Positions 12,589 through 18,566 of a stretch of 21,032 nt of DNA are shown piece by piece. This stretch comes from a virus, in the IMG/VR virus record IMGVR_UViG_3300047299_000014, positions 1 to 21,032 of that record; one strand, given 5' to 3'. The translations under genes and the position numbers were made by a program. The notes below the pieces were generated by a model, which was given only the letters and a program-made list of their open reading frames with translations, did no database searches and was not told where the DNA came from. The number at the start of each line of letters is the position of its first letter. Position 1 is the first letter of the stretch.

Positions 12589-13065
12589 TTTTAGACCTCT
12601 CGTGCTGTAACTTAGTCCAGATTTGCCACTCTACAAACTCCTCGACAGACATTGATTGTTCAAGTTCTGAGACTGTCTTTCCTAATTTCTCGGCAAGGAA
12701 AAACTTGAACTGCCTCTCGTTAGAGTTTAGGAGTTTTTTTCCAACTCCTGCGGAATTACAAGCATGATCTCAGCAGCAATACGAGCCAGGACGCTTGCGT
12801 CAACATTGGTTCGCAATGCAACCTTGTCTTCAATCGTGAAAAGAGGATCACCCTTCTCATCAAGTGCCTTCATAATCAGCAAATCAGCAAGCATCTCGCT
12901 TTCGTTGCTGCTCTTGGACACTACCTGCAACTTACCCTGATCGCGCAGAGTAAATGGCTTGGAATAGACAATAAATGGGCCTTTATCATCCCCCCATTCA
13001 GGCACTTCAATGCGCTTGACATGGAGGGAGTTAAAGTGATCTTTTGCTCGATCAATCGCTCGCAT
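12572..13065 (-). CDS. GT: Extended tail assembly chaperone gpGT made by -1 frameshift
   Basis: The gpG reading frame shifts back one base at A AAA AAC (12733 to 12739) and continues to TGA at 12572 to 12574, giving about 164 residues. The extra part after the shift reads KLLNSNERQFKFFLAEKL, then GKTVSELEQSMSVEEFVEWQ, IWTKLQHERSKNGSNK. The LAEKLGKTVSEL and EEFVEWQ stretch is typical of gpT-type extensions. In lambda-like phages the long form binds the tape measure while the G part binds tail tube protein, and neither ends up in the virion. The frame overlaps the start of the tape measure gene, again as in lambda. The coordinates include the slip, so direct translation of the interval will not give this product. 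Confidence 0.88.
12727..13065 (-). CDS. G: Tail assembly chaperone, gpG-like
   Basis: The 112-residue protein lies between tail tube and tape measure, the invariant place of the tail assembly chaperone. It is soluble and charged, with an N-terminal RIEVPEWGDDKGPFIVYSKP segment and a helical remainder (SSNESEMLADLLIMKALDEK). This resembles gpG-type chaperones that coat the tape measure and recruit tail tube subunits. The start overlaps the tail tube stop in TAATG, implying coupled translation. Normal termination is at TAA 12727, a few codons after a slippery heptamer, so this is the short form of a G/GT pair. Confidence 0.88.
   Translation of the reverse strand: MRAIDRAKDHFNSLHVKRIEVPEWGDDKGPFIVYSKPFTLRDQGKLQVVSKSSNESEMLADLLIMKALDEKGDPLFTIEDKVALRTNVDASVLARIAAEIMLVIPQELEKNS
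12733..12739 (-). other. -1 ribosomal frameshift slippery site A AAA AAC
   Basis: On the minus strand seven A residues and a C are read in frame as GAA AAA AAC TCC TAA, so A AAA AAC is correctly phased for simultaneous tRNA slippage by -1. An AGGAG Shine-Dalgarno-like sequence sits at 12745 to 12749, five bases upstream. AGGAGTT and AACTCCT flank the site as an inverted repeat. The -1 frame then opens for another 54 codons into the gpT-like extension. Confidence 0.88.
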
Positions 13066-14239: not shown

Positions 14240-14427
14240 TATTCAGCCTCTGGAATTTCAGCAACGGCTTCCACAATCTCTTGTGGCTCTTCGACAAATT
14301 TACCTTCTGCGGTAGCTTTGCCGTTTTTCACAAATTCTTTTGCCTCTTTTGTTGGCAAGTCGGCTACTTCGCCAATCTTGAATCGACCAAGAGAGGTATC
14401 AGTATGTTTGGTAAACCTGATTTTCAT
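14239..14427 (-). CDS. Small head-region protein, paralogue of its neighbour, 62 aa
   Basis: I chose ATG 14427 (MKIRFTKHTDTSLGRFKIGE) because AAAGG lies six bases upstream; the frame is open further upstream to 14472 without a good ribosome-binding site. The core KIGEVADLPTKEAKEFVKNG and an acidic C-terminal tail (EEPQEIVEAVAEIPEAE) make it a small protein similar to the preceding gene product: aligned over about 37 residues, roughly 12 positions are identical. Small proteins with an I-G-x-V-x-x-L core are common after capsid genes in many phages. It sits where lambda encodes gpFI, a packaging accessory protein, but I see no direct match. Function unknown. Confidence 0.78.
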   Translation of the reverse strand: MKIRFTKHTDTSLGRFKIGEVADLPTKEAKEFVKNGKATAEGKFVEEPQEIVEAVAEIPEAE

Positions 14428-14629
14428 TTTTAGCCTTTCGACCACGTTTGATGATCGGCTTGGATTCATCAAGACCGATGGCTGTATTGCTCAAAACAGG
14501 CTCTTGATAAGGAACACAGCGACCAGATTTTTTCAAAGCAGCACCCTCTTCATAAGAGAGTTCCAGCACTTGACCAATCCTAGCGATTCCAACGCTAGTC
14601 ATTGTGTTTCTTACGAATTGGTATTGCAT
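14399..14629 (-). CDS. Small head-region protein, 76 aa
   Basis: The protein begins MQYQFVRNTMTSVGIARIGQ and continues VLELSYEEGAALKKSGRCVP. This is a diverged copy of the following gene's product (shared F, T, T-S, G, I-G, V, L and K-x-G positions). A basic segment (KRGRKAKNENQ) lies near its end. The start ATG 14629 lies just below the terminator that follows the capsid gene, and the only Shine-Dalgarno candidate, GAGG, forms part of the terminator's 3' arm. The end overlaps the next gene by 29 bases. It probably assists head completion or DNA packaging, by position only. Confidence 0.72.
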   Translation of the reverse strand: MQYQFVRNTMTSVGIARIGQVLELSYEEGAALKKSGRCVPYQEPVLSNTAIGLDESKPIIKRGRKAKNENQVYQTY

Positions 14630-14633
14630 AGTT

Positions 14634-14661
14634 AAAAACCTCGGAGGTTTCCCCCCGAGGT
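14634..14661 (-). terminator. Rho-independent terminator after the capsid gene
   Basis: On the minus strand ACCTCGGGGG pairs with CCTCCGAGGT (one G-T pair) through ten base pairs closed by a GAAA tetraloop, followed directly by TTTT. It begins 11 bases after the capsid stop. A terminator here would leave a high level of capsid message and reduce transcription of the downstream genes. Late antitermination or leaky readthrough must supply the rest. Confidence 0.85.
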
Positions 14662-14672
14662 CATGTCACTCA

Positions 14673-15764
14673 TTAGGGAGTGATGTCTGCGTCACCCAAA
14701 CAGAAGCTGGCGGCGTGGCGCACAGCAACGTCAGCGGACTGCATAGCCACCACACGCACAGTACCAGTGGTAGAAGCGGTGTAGGGGTCAACCAGAATGT
14801 CCAGACCACCCCACATACCGATAAGCAGGTCAGCGAAGTTACCGAAGTACACATCGCCAGCAGCCACTTGGTTCGACACAATGGCTTTGTAGCCGTTGAG
14901 TTGACCGCCGTCCAGAGCAAACAGGCCAGAACCGCTGTCTTTGGCAGTGGTTTTCAGAGCGCCAGCCATGGCAGCGTTCATGATGTAGGCCAGATTGCCG
15001 CGCAGAGCGTTATCAGCAGCCACTTCGGTTTCCATGCCAACAGCTTCAGCGAAGGTCGGGTAGGTAGCAGCGAAGTCCTTGGTGTTGATGCCGCTGGTGT
15101 TGCGGATACCAGTGGGTTGACCGCTGGTACCAGAACCACTCAGAGCGCCGAGGTCGATGGCCAGAGCCAGAGCAGAAGCCAGATCGTTACGAACCAGAGC
15201 TTCAACATCAGGCGAACCTTGCATCATCAACTGACGGGTCACATCGGTGTAAGCGCCAACAGTCTTGGGCGACATGGTGATCGAAGTGATCGTCATTTCG
15301 CTCTCGCTAGCAGCGGAACCTTCAGTGAACCAGCCACCAGAGGAAGCAGCAGACTTCTTCGGAATCTTGATGTTGCCTTGCAGACCAGTCAGCATCGTTG
15401 CGCCAGCTTGCATCACGCTAGAAGCGTTACGCAGGACATCAACGAAAGCGTCCGGACGGAACTGCTGACCAACCACACCAGCGTCATCGGTGGTGTTCAG
15501 GTCACGCTTAGTCCACTGGCGCAGAACGTCAGCGGGAACCAGCAGACCTTGAGCCGATTGGCCGAAGGCGCGTTGAGCAGCTTCAGAGCACTCGAATTCA
15601 AAGGCAGCGGCGCGTTGAGCAGCGCGGTCGGTTGGGTTGGCCAGAGCGTTGATAGCACGCATCAGGCTGAAGCGTTTAACTTCAGTCTTGTTCATGCCAA
15701 CATCTTGCTGGACGGGAGCGTCAAAAGCGCGGCTGTCAACAGCCACTTGCACGGAGTTTTCCAT
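14673..15764 (-). CDS. Internally initiated major capsid protein, 363 aa (possible second product)
   Basis: Met242 of the fusion protein, at ATG 15764, is preceded by AAAGGA with a seven-base gap, as good a ribosome-binding site as any in the window. It lies at the end of the linker between protease and capsid domains. The product would start MENSVQVAVDSRAFDAPVQQ and contain a short N-terminal delta-like region plus the complete capsid fold, a normal length for unfused capsid precursors. Separate initiation would let the phage make hundreds of capsid subunits per protease, as lambda does with nested genes C and Nu3. Whether this start is used is inferred from the site only. Confidence 0.5.
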   Translation of the reverse strand: MENSVQVAVDSRAFDAPVQQDVGMNKTEVKRFSLMRAINALANPTDRAAQRAAAFEFECSEAAQRAFGQSAQGLLVPADVLRQWTKRDLNTTDDAGVVGQQFRPDAFVDVLRNASSVMQAGATMLTGLQGNIKIPKKSAASSGGWFTEGSAASESEMTITSITMSPKTVGAYTDVTRQLMMQGSPDVEALVRNDLASALALAIDLGALSGSGTSGQPTGIRNTSGINTKDFAATYPTFAEAVGMETEVAADNALRGNLAYIMNAAMAGALKTTAKDSGSGLFALDGGQLNGYKAIVSNQVAAGDVYFGNFADLLIGMWGGLDILVDPYTASTTGTVRVVAMQSADVAVRHAASFCLGDADITP

Positions 15765-16487
15765 TTTGGTTTCCTTTGGGATTTTGACTTCGGTTACCAC
15801 TTCAGCGCGGATTTCCTCAGTCACGGTTTCGGTAATTTGTGGCTCTTCAACCACAGCTTCAGAGTTAGCCAAGACTTCTTCAAGACTACGACCAATGCCA
15901 ACGGACGGGTCAGCGGGAATAGACACGATAGATGCCTCAACTGGTCGCCAATTTGTTGCGCGGTAGGTGCGACCATTGTTCTCTTTCACCATCTTGGTAA
16001 TAGAGTAGCCAATGGACACATTCCCACGAATGTTGTCAGCGACATCACCATAAACCTCTGAAGCCAATGCGCTCTTACCGAAACGCACTGTCGCACGCAA
16101 CTTGCGTGCCGAGCCATCGAGGGATACGGATTCGATAACGCCAATCTGCTTTTCAGGATCATGATCCAGCAAGAGAGGCGCACGACCAGAGTTCAGGAAA
16201 CTCAAGTCGATAGATTCAGGAGAGTGATCCAAGACTTCAGACCCAAACGAACGCTCAACAGGCAATTCGCTGGAAATGGCCATGTTTACACGGCGCTCGT
16301 CTTGCACAACAGCCTCCATAGCGTCTGCACGAGTCAAACGCTCAGATTGCTTACGTTCTTCAGTAATCGCAACTTCTTCAACAACTTCAGTTGTCTCAGC
16401 AACAACCTCTTCGGCCACAGCTTGTTCAGCAACAACTTCAGCAGGAGTTTCTGCGATTACTTCATCAGTGGTAATGGGATTTTCCAT
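14673..16487 (-). CDS. Fused prohead protease and HK97-type major capsid protein
   Basis: The frame gives 604 residues from ATG 16487, which has AAAGG six bases upstream; it opens upstream to 16577, but that would overlap the portal gene without a ribosome-binding site. Residues about 70 to 200 are an S78-family prohead protease: FGSEVLDHSPESIDLS, LLLDHDPEKQIGVIES with the likely catalytic His109, NVSIGYSI with Ser158, and VEASIVSIPADPSVG. Before it lies an Ala/Val/Glu-rich acidic tail and after it a similar acidic linker (210 to 240). From about residue 265 the HK97-fold capsid protein follows (GLLVPADVLRQW, FVDVLRNASSVMQ, GGWFTEGSAASESEM, PYTASTTGTVRVVAMQSADV). The protease should free the capsid during maturation. 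Confidence 0.92.
   Translation of the reverse strand: MENPITTDEVIAETPAEVVAEQAVAEEVVAETTEVVEEVAITEERKQSERLTRADAMEAVVQDERRVNMAISSELPVERSFGSEVLDHSPESIDLSFLNSGRAPLLLDHDPEKQIGVIESVSLDGSARKLRATVRFGKSALASEVYGDVADNIRGNVSIGYSITKMVKENNGRTYRATNWRPVEASIVSIPADPSVGIGRSLEEVLANSEAVVEEPQITETVTEEIRAEVVTEVKIPKETKMENSVQVAVDSRAFDAPVQQDVGMNKTEVKRFSLMRAINALANPTDRAAQRAAAFEFECSEAAQRAFGQSAQGLLVPADVLRQWTKRDLNTTDDAGVVGQQFRPDAFVDVLRNASSVMQAGATMLTGLQGNIKIPKKSAASSGGWFTEGSAASESEMTITSITMSPKTVGAYTDVTRQLMMQGSPDVEALVRNDLASALALAIDLGALSGSGTSGQPTGIRNTSGINTKDFAATYPTFAEAVGMETEVAADNALRGNLAYIMNAAMAGALKTTAKDSGSGLFALDGGQLNGYKAIVSNQVAAGDVYFGNFADLLIGMWGGLDILVDPYTASTTGTVRVVAMQSADVAVRHAASFCLGDADITP
15772..15777 (-). promoter_or_regulatory. 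Internal Shine-Dalgarno sequence at protease-capsid joint
   Basis: AAAGGA on the minus strand precedes the in-frame ATG 15764 by seven bases. It falls in the coding sequence for Pro-Lys-Glu-Thr of the linker, a region free to vary, so a maintained ribosome-binding site there is plausible. Confidence 0.5.
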
Positions 16488-16509
16488 CTCTGACCTTTCG
16501 TTAACTATA

Positions 16510-17973
16510 TTATGCAACAGGCTCTTGCTGATTGGCAATATCAGCAGGAACAGGAGCTTTGTTGCCAAATGGCTCAAATGCCATTTTCAGACCATAACTC
16601 GCAGCCAATTCTTTTTCGGCTTGAATCTGGTCAAACTGCTCTTCAACATCACGACCATATTGGCTTGCAATGTCTTGCATGGACAAAATACCATTTTGCA
16701 AACCAACAACAGCAGCGTTCATTTCTTTCAAAGGATCAACCCACTGGAAACCACGGGCACGATAAACAGTTGCATCAGCAAATTTATCAAAACGGCTTGC
16801 AGGAATCATGATTACGCCATTTTCCATAATGCTCATCAAGAAAGCATTGAAAACAGGCTCAATAAAATGCTGAATCAGGAAATCCTGCAAAACCTTCCAC
16901 TGGTCACGATCTTCAAGCGTGCCTTGACGAATAGACGAGTAGCTAACGCCTTCAAGATCGTTTGCAAGGCTTGTGTAAGAAACACCAAGACCAGAAGCAA
17001 TGCCTCGCAAGATTGCCTTCTCAAAGTCGGCAAAAGCAGAGGTCGGGTGAGTTGGGTCAAACTGCTGGAACTCAACACCTTGAGGTAGTTGATGGAATGT
17101 TCCAGGATCGGCTTCCATAATTGGCACTTTGTTTTCAGTGTCATCAGCAACAAAGCCATCACCTTGAGGCGATGTAAAGAAACCCATTTTTGATGCGCCA
17201 ACACGAGCAGCAACCAACTCAGCTTCACGGTAGCCAGCAAGCATCTTCAAAGAAGAAATCACCGGAGACATCCAAGGAGCGCCGCGGGTTTGCATGGCTC
17301 GCTCTGGCAGATAAGCGTGAATGATCTTGTCCGCTGTCACTCGGTTGTACGACTTGCCCATCCACATTGTAGATGTATCGCCAGGATGCGAAGTGAACAA
17401 ATGGTAAGCAACTGGACGATTGAATTTGTCTAACTCAACGCCCATGCGAATACGGTTTCCGTTAGGAAGAACAGCGTTGTATTCCTCATCAAGCAAATCA
17501 GTCTCAATGAATTCAAGCGCAAACATGAAATCATTTGGATATTTGACAAGACGAACAAGAACTTCGCCATCGCGGATAAGAGACTCAACAAACAGTCGTT
17601 GAGCATCTACCCAAGACATACGACCATCAACGGTACACATACCCTTGCGAGTCCACTTTTTCCAAGAGTTCTCAACAATGGTATTTCCGATCATGTCCAT
17701 CGCGCCATTGTCGTTACGGGCTTTGACTTGAATCGTCACGCCACGCTCACCAACAATGTTTGTTTTGGCAAGAGTCAGAAAGCGTTTTGCATATTCGTTG
17801 TTGCGAGACAAATCACGGCAACGATTACGCAATGTCTTTAGTGCGCCTTTGATTTCCTCGTCAGCAGAGCGAGAAGATGCAACAAAGTCAGCAAACAATC
17901 GACCCTGATTGGCGCCAGCATAAGTGCGCTTCTTCAAGGGTTTCTTGCGAGAAAAAATATCAAGGATTCCCAT
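16510..17973 (-). CDS. B: Portal protein, lambda gpB family
   Basis: The 487-residue protein forms the dodecameric channel at one head vertex. It begins MGILDIFSRKKPLKKRTYAG and continues with the lambda-portal hallmarks LRNRCRDLSRNNEYAKRF, TNIVGERGVTIQVK, SLIRDGEVLVRLVKY and then IHAYLPERAMQTRGAPWMSP. The helix REAELVAARVGASKMGFF and the segment SGLGVSYTSLANDLEGVSYS follow. Lambda gpB has 533 residues, so the length fits. I chose ATG 17973, fused to the previous stop as TGATG with GGGGG upstream, instead of the TTG three bases earlier. In the lambda order it is followed by the protease/capsid gene, which starts 22 bases on. Confidence 0.93.
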   Translation of the reverse strand: MGILDIFSRKKPLKKRTYAGANQGRLFADFVASSRSADEEIKGALKTLRNRCRDLSRNNEYAKRFLTLAKTNIVGERGVTIQVKARNDNGAMDMIGNTIVENSWKKWTRKGMCTVDGRMSWVDAQRLFVESLIRDGEVLVRLVKYPNDFMFALEFIETDLLDEEYNAVLPNGNRIRMGVELDKFNRPVAYHLFTSHPGDTSTMWMGKSYNRVTADKIIHAYLPERAMQTRGAPWMSPVISSLKMLAGYREAELVAARVGASKMGFFTSPQGDGFVADDTENKVPIMEADPGTFHQLPQGVEFQQFDPTHPTSAFADFEKAILRGIASGLGVSYTSLANDLEGVSYSSIRQGTLEDRDQWKVLQDFLIQHFIEPVFNAFLMSIMENGVIMIPASRFDKFADATVYRARGFQWVDPLKEMNAAVVGLQNGILSMQDIASQYGRDVEEQFDQIQAEKELAASYGLKMAFEPFGNKAPVPADIANQQEPVA

Positions 17974-18566
17974 CAATTACCCCCAAATCGCACTTGAACA
18001 GTAGCGCCAGTCTGCTGACCCTTGCGAATTCGCTCGGCAACAGCTTGCTGTTGATATTCGCGCTTGTAGTAATTGCGAGCATCAAGAAGCTCTTTGAATG
18101 ACAGTTTGGTCAGACTGCGACCAGCAATCGTGTAGTTTGCAACATCAGAATCAGCCTTGCCACTAAGCAATGACTCAATCTTTGCAATCATTACCTCTGC
18201 GTGTGAGCGAGGATCAGCGCCATTTACATCAAGGTCAGCAACGCACTCAAAGTAACCGCGATCAACAATGATTCGGTTACCGTCAGAGTTTCGTGAAATC
18301 TCAAGCTGCCAGTGATATACGCCAGCAACAAAATCAGCCGATGTCGTGCTGTTAACAGAGAAAAGGTAGTCGCTACCACTTGCTGTGCCAGTAACTTGAA
18401 TCTCAGTGTTACCTCCACCAGTGATACGGGCTACATATTTTGCCGTATAAGCAGTGTTTGGATAATCCTGACCAAGATCGGTACGTTTCCACTGGATATA
18501 ATCCCCTGGACTTACCTTCTCAGGCTCAACAGTTGGCGCATTAGCAGAATCGAACAGGTTAGCCAT
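17973..18566 (-). CDS. Head-completion protein with extra N-terminal domain, gpW-like
   Basis: The protein has 197 residues, while lambda gpW has 68. The C-terminal 70 residues (ANYTIAGRSLTKLSFKELLD, then ARNYYKREYQQQAVAERIRK) match gpW's strand-helix pattern (lambda FTATSVSDLKKYIAEL). Residues about 10 to 115 form a separate beta-rich domain (PGDYIQWKRTDLGQDYPN, AKYVARITGGGNTEIQVTG, YHWQLEISRNSDGNRIIVDR) of a kind that could be immunoglobulin-like. The place between terminase and portal is exactly that of gpW, which stabilises the filled head. The fusion suggests a longer neck part or an exposed decoration. Confidence 0.78.
   Translation of the reverse strand: MANLFDSANAPTVEPEKVSPGDYIQWKRTDLGQDYPNTAYTAKYVARITGGGNTEIQVTGTASGSDYLFSVNSTTSADFVAGVYHWQLEISRNSDGNRIIVDRGYFECVADLDVNGADPRSHAEVMIAKIESLLSGKADSDVANYTIAGRSLTKLSFKELLDARNYYKREYQQQAVAERIRKGQQTGATVQVRFGGN

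Follow-up and report, generated by a model that had tools for sequence, protein, structure and literature searches.

The protease-capsid fusion gene described here is very likely two genes in one reading frame with a common stop codon, in which a weak upstream start would give a minor fusion protein and an internal start an abundant delta-capsid protein. The window, i.e., the whole stretch of DNA analysed, is a virus record of 21,032 bases, and its minus strand carries a head-and-tail module. Genes for the small and large terminase, a head-tail joining protein, and a lambda-type portal precede the fusion ORF, and genes for head closure, tail terminator, major tail protein, tail chaperone, tape measure, and fibres lie 3' of it. 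The first-pass annotation had placed protease and capsid in a single frame, and this was borne out: the minus-strand ORF runs uninterrupted for 604 codons, from an ATG at 16487-16485 to a TAA at 14675-14673, with matches to Pfam families PF04586 and PF05065. The range it gave, 15764-16487, holds the protease and linker part, but the full feature extends to 14673. The AAAGGA that it reported in the linker, seven bases ahead of an in-frame ATG, was located at codon 242 (ATG at 15764-15762 and AAAGGA at 15777-15772, separated by 7 nt), within a stretch predicted to be disordered. The gene, its parts, and its immediate surroundings were as follows:

16510-17976, minus strand: portal gene, 5' of the fusion ORF; low-copy comparison for codon usage
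16494-16498, minus strand: Shine-Dalgarno (SD) sequence AAAGG of the full-length start (ATG at 16487); duplex −3.4 kcal/mol, weak
14673-16487, minus strand: fusion ORF (protease-linker-delta-capsid); 604 aa, 64.1 kDa
15918-16340, minus strand: predicted S78 protease domain, residues 50-190; pLDDT about 90
15711-15908, minus strand: disordered linker containing Met242, residues 194-259; pLDDT < 50
15762-15777, minus strand: internal initiation site AAAGGA-AACCAAA-ATG (Met242); putative start
14673-15764, minus strand: nested in-frame gene from Met242, putative delta-capsid precursor; 363 aa, 37.8 kDa
15504-15710, minus strand: helical delta/scaffold-like region in the predicted structure, residues 260-328
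15450-15503, minus strand: second disordered stretch (residues 329-346); the cut that frees the mature capsid subunit is expected here
14676-15449, minus strand: HK97-fold capsid domain by profile and predicted structure, residues 347-604
14643-14655, minus strand: terminator-like hairpin and T-run right after the capsid stop; weak by count

With a predicted SD duplex of −5.6 kcal/mol, the internal site is stronger than the full-length start (−3.4 kcal/mol). The pattern AAAGGA-N5-9-ATG occurred twice in the 21-kb window, both times on the coding strand, and the second occurrence is the start of a 96-aa ORF at 2581. Terminator-like hairpins numbered three in the searched region, against 2.5 expected. 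Searches of the window for tRNAs and against Rfam returned no match. Opposite the fusion gene, an open frame of 485 codons (14604-16061, plus strand) is probably no gene but a shadow ORF that codon bias produces. Ahead of the protease domain, 16340-16487 (minus strand) encodes an acidic tail rich in Glu, Val, and Ala. The annotated ORF is far longer at the N-terminus in some relatives (loci L082, L089, L092, and L093); the fusion ORF annotated in CRP-821 is 974 aa, and in CRP-811 and CRP-821 the extension overlaps the 3' end of the portal gene.

Profile matches identified both halves of the protein. Residues 90-199 matched PF04586, the S78 prohead protease (29.2 bits, cut-off 21), and residues 339-598 matched PF05065, the HK97-type capsid (152.2 bits, cut-off 24.2), with TIGR01554 (115.8 bits, cut-off 27.5) also placing the latter among HK97-fold major capsid proteins. 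The HK97 proheadase equivalog TIGR01543 scored 26.6 bits, below its curated cut-off of 59, and NF045541 (scaf_prot_MCP2, a model for prohead protease/capsid fusions) scored 135.4 bits over residues 62-313 only, below the full-model cut-off of 525; the fusion works like NF045541 proteins, though it lies outside that NCBIfam family. NF045540, the Gifsy-2 type tripartite protein with a ClpP-like protease, was absent from the profile matches of the fusion, whose protease is of the S78 type. Residues H109, S158, and E184, which we take to be the catalytic residues, were invariant across 87 sequences.

A structure model built from 87 aligned homologues, among them three of nine loci of an additional set used nowhere else, had a mean pLDDT of 75.9; an earlier 26-sequence model was dropped (pLDDT 41). 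Among solved structures, the roseophage R4C capsid matched best, and those of GTA, D3, and HK97 ranked high as well; the matches include 8gta and HK97 chains (3qpr, 8fqk). According to the model, Met242 sits in the disordered linker that precedes the helical delta region. The deposited R4C shell chain, without its N-terminal part, comprises residues 362-629 of a 629-residue ORF, and R4C residue 362 aligns to approximately residue 335 of the fusion, within the second disordered stretch. Accordingly, the product of the internal start would consist of a 93-residue delta region and a 270-residue shell protein. In R4C (vB_DshS-R4C), the Met at the junction is Met189. Since the N-terminus of the mature capsid lies near residue 335 and not at Met242, mature virions cannot test the internal start. 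The portion of the R4C paper that was available (PMC10276861) contains neither "protease" nor words starting with "cleav".

Conservation of the junction ATG and its SD was investigated in the 80 closest viral loci (55-87% identity over the best segment) and in 17 of 84 phage records, plus three more distant phages. When sites were picked by SD, all 80 viral relatives had a junction ATG with a best duplex of −5.6 kcal/mol or stronger. As these sites had been picked by strongest SD, an SD-blind rule, which takes the first ATG after the protease end, was added; it found a junction ATG in 98 of 98 loci (the window, 80 relatives, and 17 named phages). Under this rule the duplex was −5.5 or stronger in 85/98 loci and in 34/44 de-replicated loci, compared with 65 of 777 other in-frame ATGs in the same ORFs. 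A rule that began 40 codons upstream and took the first ATG from there was dropped, as it ran into the protease domain and altered 23 of 44 picks; under it, 18/44 loci reached −5.5. All 17 named phages had the junction ATG, 12 of them with a duplex of −4 or stronger, and two (Murka and Mano) had a weak junction SD. The first-pass annotation had asked whether close homologues lack the site; all of them keep it. Cyanophages S-LBS1, S-CBS3, and S-CBS1 (L086, L089, and L092) kept the junction ATG with no SD. Cyanobacteria depend less on SD pairing, and an SD-less junction ATG would fit SD-poor initiation in such hosts.

The same site extends to much more distant relatives. Scanning bacterial and archaeal genomes with a family profile yielded 80 loci at 35-56% identity, which by record title come from several proteobacterial classes and other phyla; 79 were used, and L104, with an interrupted frame, was left out. 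A junction ATG was present in 79/79. By the first-ATG rule, 65/79 reached −4 (14/79 fell short) and 60/79 reached −5, the latter compared with 183 of 1104 other ATGs. One phage relative at 56% identity (L099) was found on a contig of a Euryarchaeota-labelled MAG, probably a misbinned viral contig.

The simplest alternative is that only the full-length fusion is translated, each subunit bearing a protease and losing it by cleavage afterwards, and that the ATG and its purines are a by-product of a linker rich in Lys and Glu. Glu, Lys, and Val do abound in the linker, and their codons readily yield AAGGA-like DNA; shuffling of the linker codons was significant (p < 0.05) in just 16 of 44 loci taken singly, and the R4C virion data are equally compatible with proteolysis. 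Against this, synonymous choice at the site goes beyond what the protein needs. Resampling synonymous codons from the usage of each gene gave an expected duplex of −3.9 compared with an observed mean of −6.5, from loci partly picked by best SD, and 40/44 loci were stronger than expected; the representatives are related, and z-scores and p-values overstate their independence. In 12 close relatives, synonymous variation was zero at K-4, E-3, and K-1, just three codons, compared with a mean diversity of 0.386 upstream. The SD is also retained where the codon register shifts among subfamilies: one spells it aag-gaa-acc-aaa-ATG (KETK-M) and another gaa-agg-aaa-act-gaa-ATG (ERKTE-M). Different amino acids encode the same SD, which indicates that the DNA motif is kept and the peptide is not. 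The residues following the ATG resemble gene starts (MENS, MSD, MAE, MTEE), while the linker varies freely. By these sequence comparisons, the internal site is not a product of chance; its strength exceeds what the protein alone would demand, and it is under selection at the nucleotide level. The check suggested in the first-pass annotation, whether AAAGGA-ATG is conserved in homologues beyond protein need, came out in favor of its interpretation in both close and distant homologues.

Codon usage provided a second line of evidence against translation of the full-length fusion only. Pooled over 44 loci, synonymous codon usage broke nine codons behind the internal ATG (bootstrap 8-12), with an excess of 13.0 at the peak versus 4.7 at the mature capsid boundary (~+93). 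Taken singly, 25/44 fusion loci had a break beyond all of 30 permutations; in a portal control, breaks were seen in 3/38 portals versus 19/38 fusions of the same loci rerun alongside. Rare codons (ATA, AGA, AGG, CGA, CTA, GGA, and GGG) accounted for 3.9% of codons in the portal, 4.4% in the protease part, 0.6% over the 92 codons that follow the ATG, and 1.0% in the capsid part, and their share was lower in the capsid part than in the protease part in 43 of 44 loci. GC3 alone was set aside as a poor measure. The distant set showed a weaker, broader break at +18 (2-19) and a fall in rare codons from 5.8% to 3.0% and 3.5%, with the capsid lower in 67/75. Judged by codon choice, the protease half resembles a low-copy gene and the remainder, from Met242 onwards and with the discarded delta included, a high-copy one. 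Translation of the fusion only would equalise codon selection on both halves; since they differ, the step is a sign that the internal start is used, and the earlier proposal that capsid is made in excess gains support from it. A single product needs equal translation throughout, and we consider the full-length-only explanation very unlikely.

Pooled local mRNA folding was weakest at the ATG (45-nt MFE of −4.6 versus about −8.6 to −12 around it), and in the distant set, too, it was weakest there (−3.8). For the window alone, the codon change point was significant (gain of 50.1, compared with at most 41.1 across 200 permutations), and it peaked at codons 186-218, 24-56 codons upstream of Met242, so that it is the pooled data, not the window alone, that put the break at the internal start. 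Local mRNA structure at the site in the window was ordinary (−7.8 versus a median of −9.3).

In the two-start arrangement that we favor, we infer initiation at Met242, the ratio of the products, their co-assembly, and the exact cut site. Ribosomes starting at 16487, with its weak SD, would make a minor 64-kDa protease-delta-capsid fusion, and those starting at Met242, with its stronger SD, large amounts of a 38-kDa delta-capsid precursor that corresponds to HK97 gp5. The unequal strength of the two initiation sites would determine how much is made of each of the two products, which end in the same C-terminus. Long and short products would co-assemble through their common delta-capsid part, and the fusion would take the protease into the procapsid via its own capsid domain. 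Once assembly is complete, a cut by the protease near residue 335 would leave ~270 aa in the mature shell.

Excess capsid could instead come from a separate shorter transcript with a promoter inside the protease region, in the style of herpesvirus UL26.5, with the ribosome-binding site serving that message. Such a transcript would yield an identical end product and would still require the SD and ATG. However, the sole sigma-70-like match in 14400-16900 lies at 16538-16509, upstream of the entire gene (one match versus 1.6 expected, with a promoter type that may not be the phage's own), and we regard this explanation as quite improbable. Least probable of all is that the internal start is a relic of separate protease and capsid genes whose stop was lost recently, leaving the start and codon bias behind: HK97, which we take to have the same protease-then-capsid order, and Cellulophaga phi39:1, whose genes are split at the equivalent place with the capsid gene starting right at the protease gene end, speak in its favor, but the fused state and the site extend to relatives of as little as 35% identity across many bacterial groups, an age at which an unselected SD would no longer persist, and the three SD-region codons are without synonymous change in the 12 close relatives.

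Other protease-capsid fusions were examined for the same arrangement. The capsid gene of Salmonella phage Gifsy-2 is said to have been described by Effantin and colleagues in 2010 as "tripartite", with a ClpP-like protease, scaffold, and capsid. Like the fusion studied here, it is a single ORF with protease, scaffold region, and HK97-fold capsid and an SD-ATG behind the protease (GAGGAG and Met221, directly behind it). It differs in its protease fold (ClpP versus S78), its capsid family (PF25209 versus PF05065), and the lack of a clear codon step. Gifsy-type loci were used in 78 of 81 cases (L197-L199, with a frame broken or short, were left out), giving 21 after de-replication. An SD and ATG stood behind the protease in 21/21, stronger than the synonymous expectation in 20/21, and with a dip in mRNA structure. 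No clear codon-usage step was seen at the internal site of this type, and the first-ATG rule failed (0/21) because an SD-less ATG precedes the site; for these two reasons the case is weaker there. The site was also present in both RcBaka, taken from 60 of the 1595 Gifsy-type phage records, and a Helicobacter prophage fusion.

Small actinophage fusions (Microbacterium EE, RRH1, and others) likewise consist of a single fusion gene, with little sequence similarity to the one in the window. Four of 87 RRH1-type records were taken, plus RRH1 and BurtonThePup. With the junction judged by eye, five of the six (RRH1, BurtonThePup, GMA5, GRU3, and BlueFeather) had an SD and ATG near the protease end; of the five fusions submitted to Pfam, which did not include GRU3, BurtonThePup alone gave a protease match. 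Gordonia phage Emperor (L278, fusion CDS 351-2210) had no SD-ATG between protease and capsid. Emperor does have gaaaggaccccaccATG (Met121), an SD-ATG ahead of the protease and behind an N-terminal hydrophobic segment. A similar ATG, ahead of the protease and capsid domains, is noted for EpicDab in PMC9671378.

Across these comparisons, the two-start arrangement appears to hold family-wide and to recur in other protease-capsid fusions, and is not the trick of one phage. We think it probable, with less assurance than for the family itself, that phage protease-capsid fusions are generally hidden two-start genes, in which fusions of independent origin, differing in protease fold and capsid family, kept or evolved an internal ribosome-binding site at the border of the capsid part, the long form acts as a minor "Trojan" subunit delivering the protease into the shell, as in Gag-Pol but through initiation strength, and the main capsid gene is unannotated in the records examined. 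Every annotated fusion record that we examined had the long CDS only, and none had a nested capsid CDS.

The arrangement resembles several known systems. In lambda C/Nu3, a short protein is made from an in-frame start inside the protease gene and has a common C-terminus with the long one; the nested product is scaffold only, and the capsid protein (E) has a separate gene. The parallel with C/Nu3 drawn in the first-pass annotation therefore applies to the in-frame start with a ribosome-binding site in the protease gene and to the shared stop, but not to the nested product, which is predicted to include the capsid domain as well as delta. HK97 gp4 (protease) and gp5 (capsid with a delta domain) are similar in size to the two parts here, a 241-codon protease part and a 363-aa delta-capsid, gp5 being 385 aa long; in HK97 a stop separates the two genes, whereas the fusion ORF has no stop there, and an extra fusion product would be made. 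In herpesvirus UL26/UL26.5 and retroviral Gag/Gag-Pol, a minor long form brings the protease into the particle and a major short form builds it. These systems achieve it by a second promoter or frameshift/readthrough and not by an internal ribosome-binding site. The long-minor, short-major arrangement proposed here follows the logic of lambda C/Nu3, UL26/UL26.5, and Gag/Gag-Pol.

Nested in-frame starts in protease genes, as in lambda, are known. Protease-capsid fusions are also known, from NCBIfam models and from PMC7302621, which names protease-scaffold-capsid fusions in several actinophage clusters and, in the part available, mentions no internal start. In the open-access literature, subscription journals being mostly outside the scope of the search, no report of internal initiation in protease-capsid fusions was found; the word "protease" does not occur in the available part of PMC4524720, on GMA5 and GRU3.

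A two-start gene would explain how protease and capsid can be fused without a protease on every subunit, and suggests a route for the protease into the procapsid. If this reading is correct, what is annotated as "major capsid protein" in many phages, among them VP882, phiHAP-1, R4C, Gifsy-2, and the Microbacterium EE phages, represents the minor product, and the real capsid precursor begins some 150 to 540 codons downstream of the annotated start. Masses expected in proteomics and constructs for structural work would change. The codon-usage step also offers a means of finding other nested genes from sequence alone.

Elsewhere in the module, the tail assembly chaperone gene (13065-12727, minus strand) contains an in-frame slippery heptamer, A-AAA-AAC, at 12730-12742, just ahead of its stop. 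The −1 frame continues without a stop for ~55 codons beyond this, reaching the tape measure gene, as in a classical frameshift of the lambda G/GT type.
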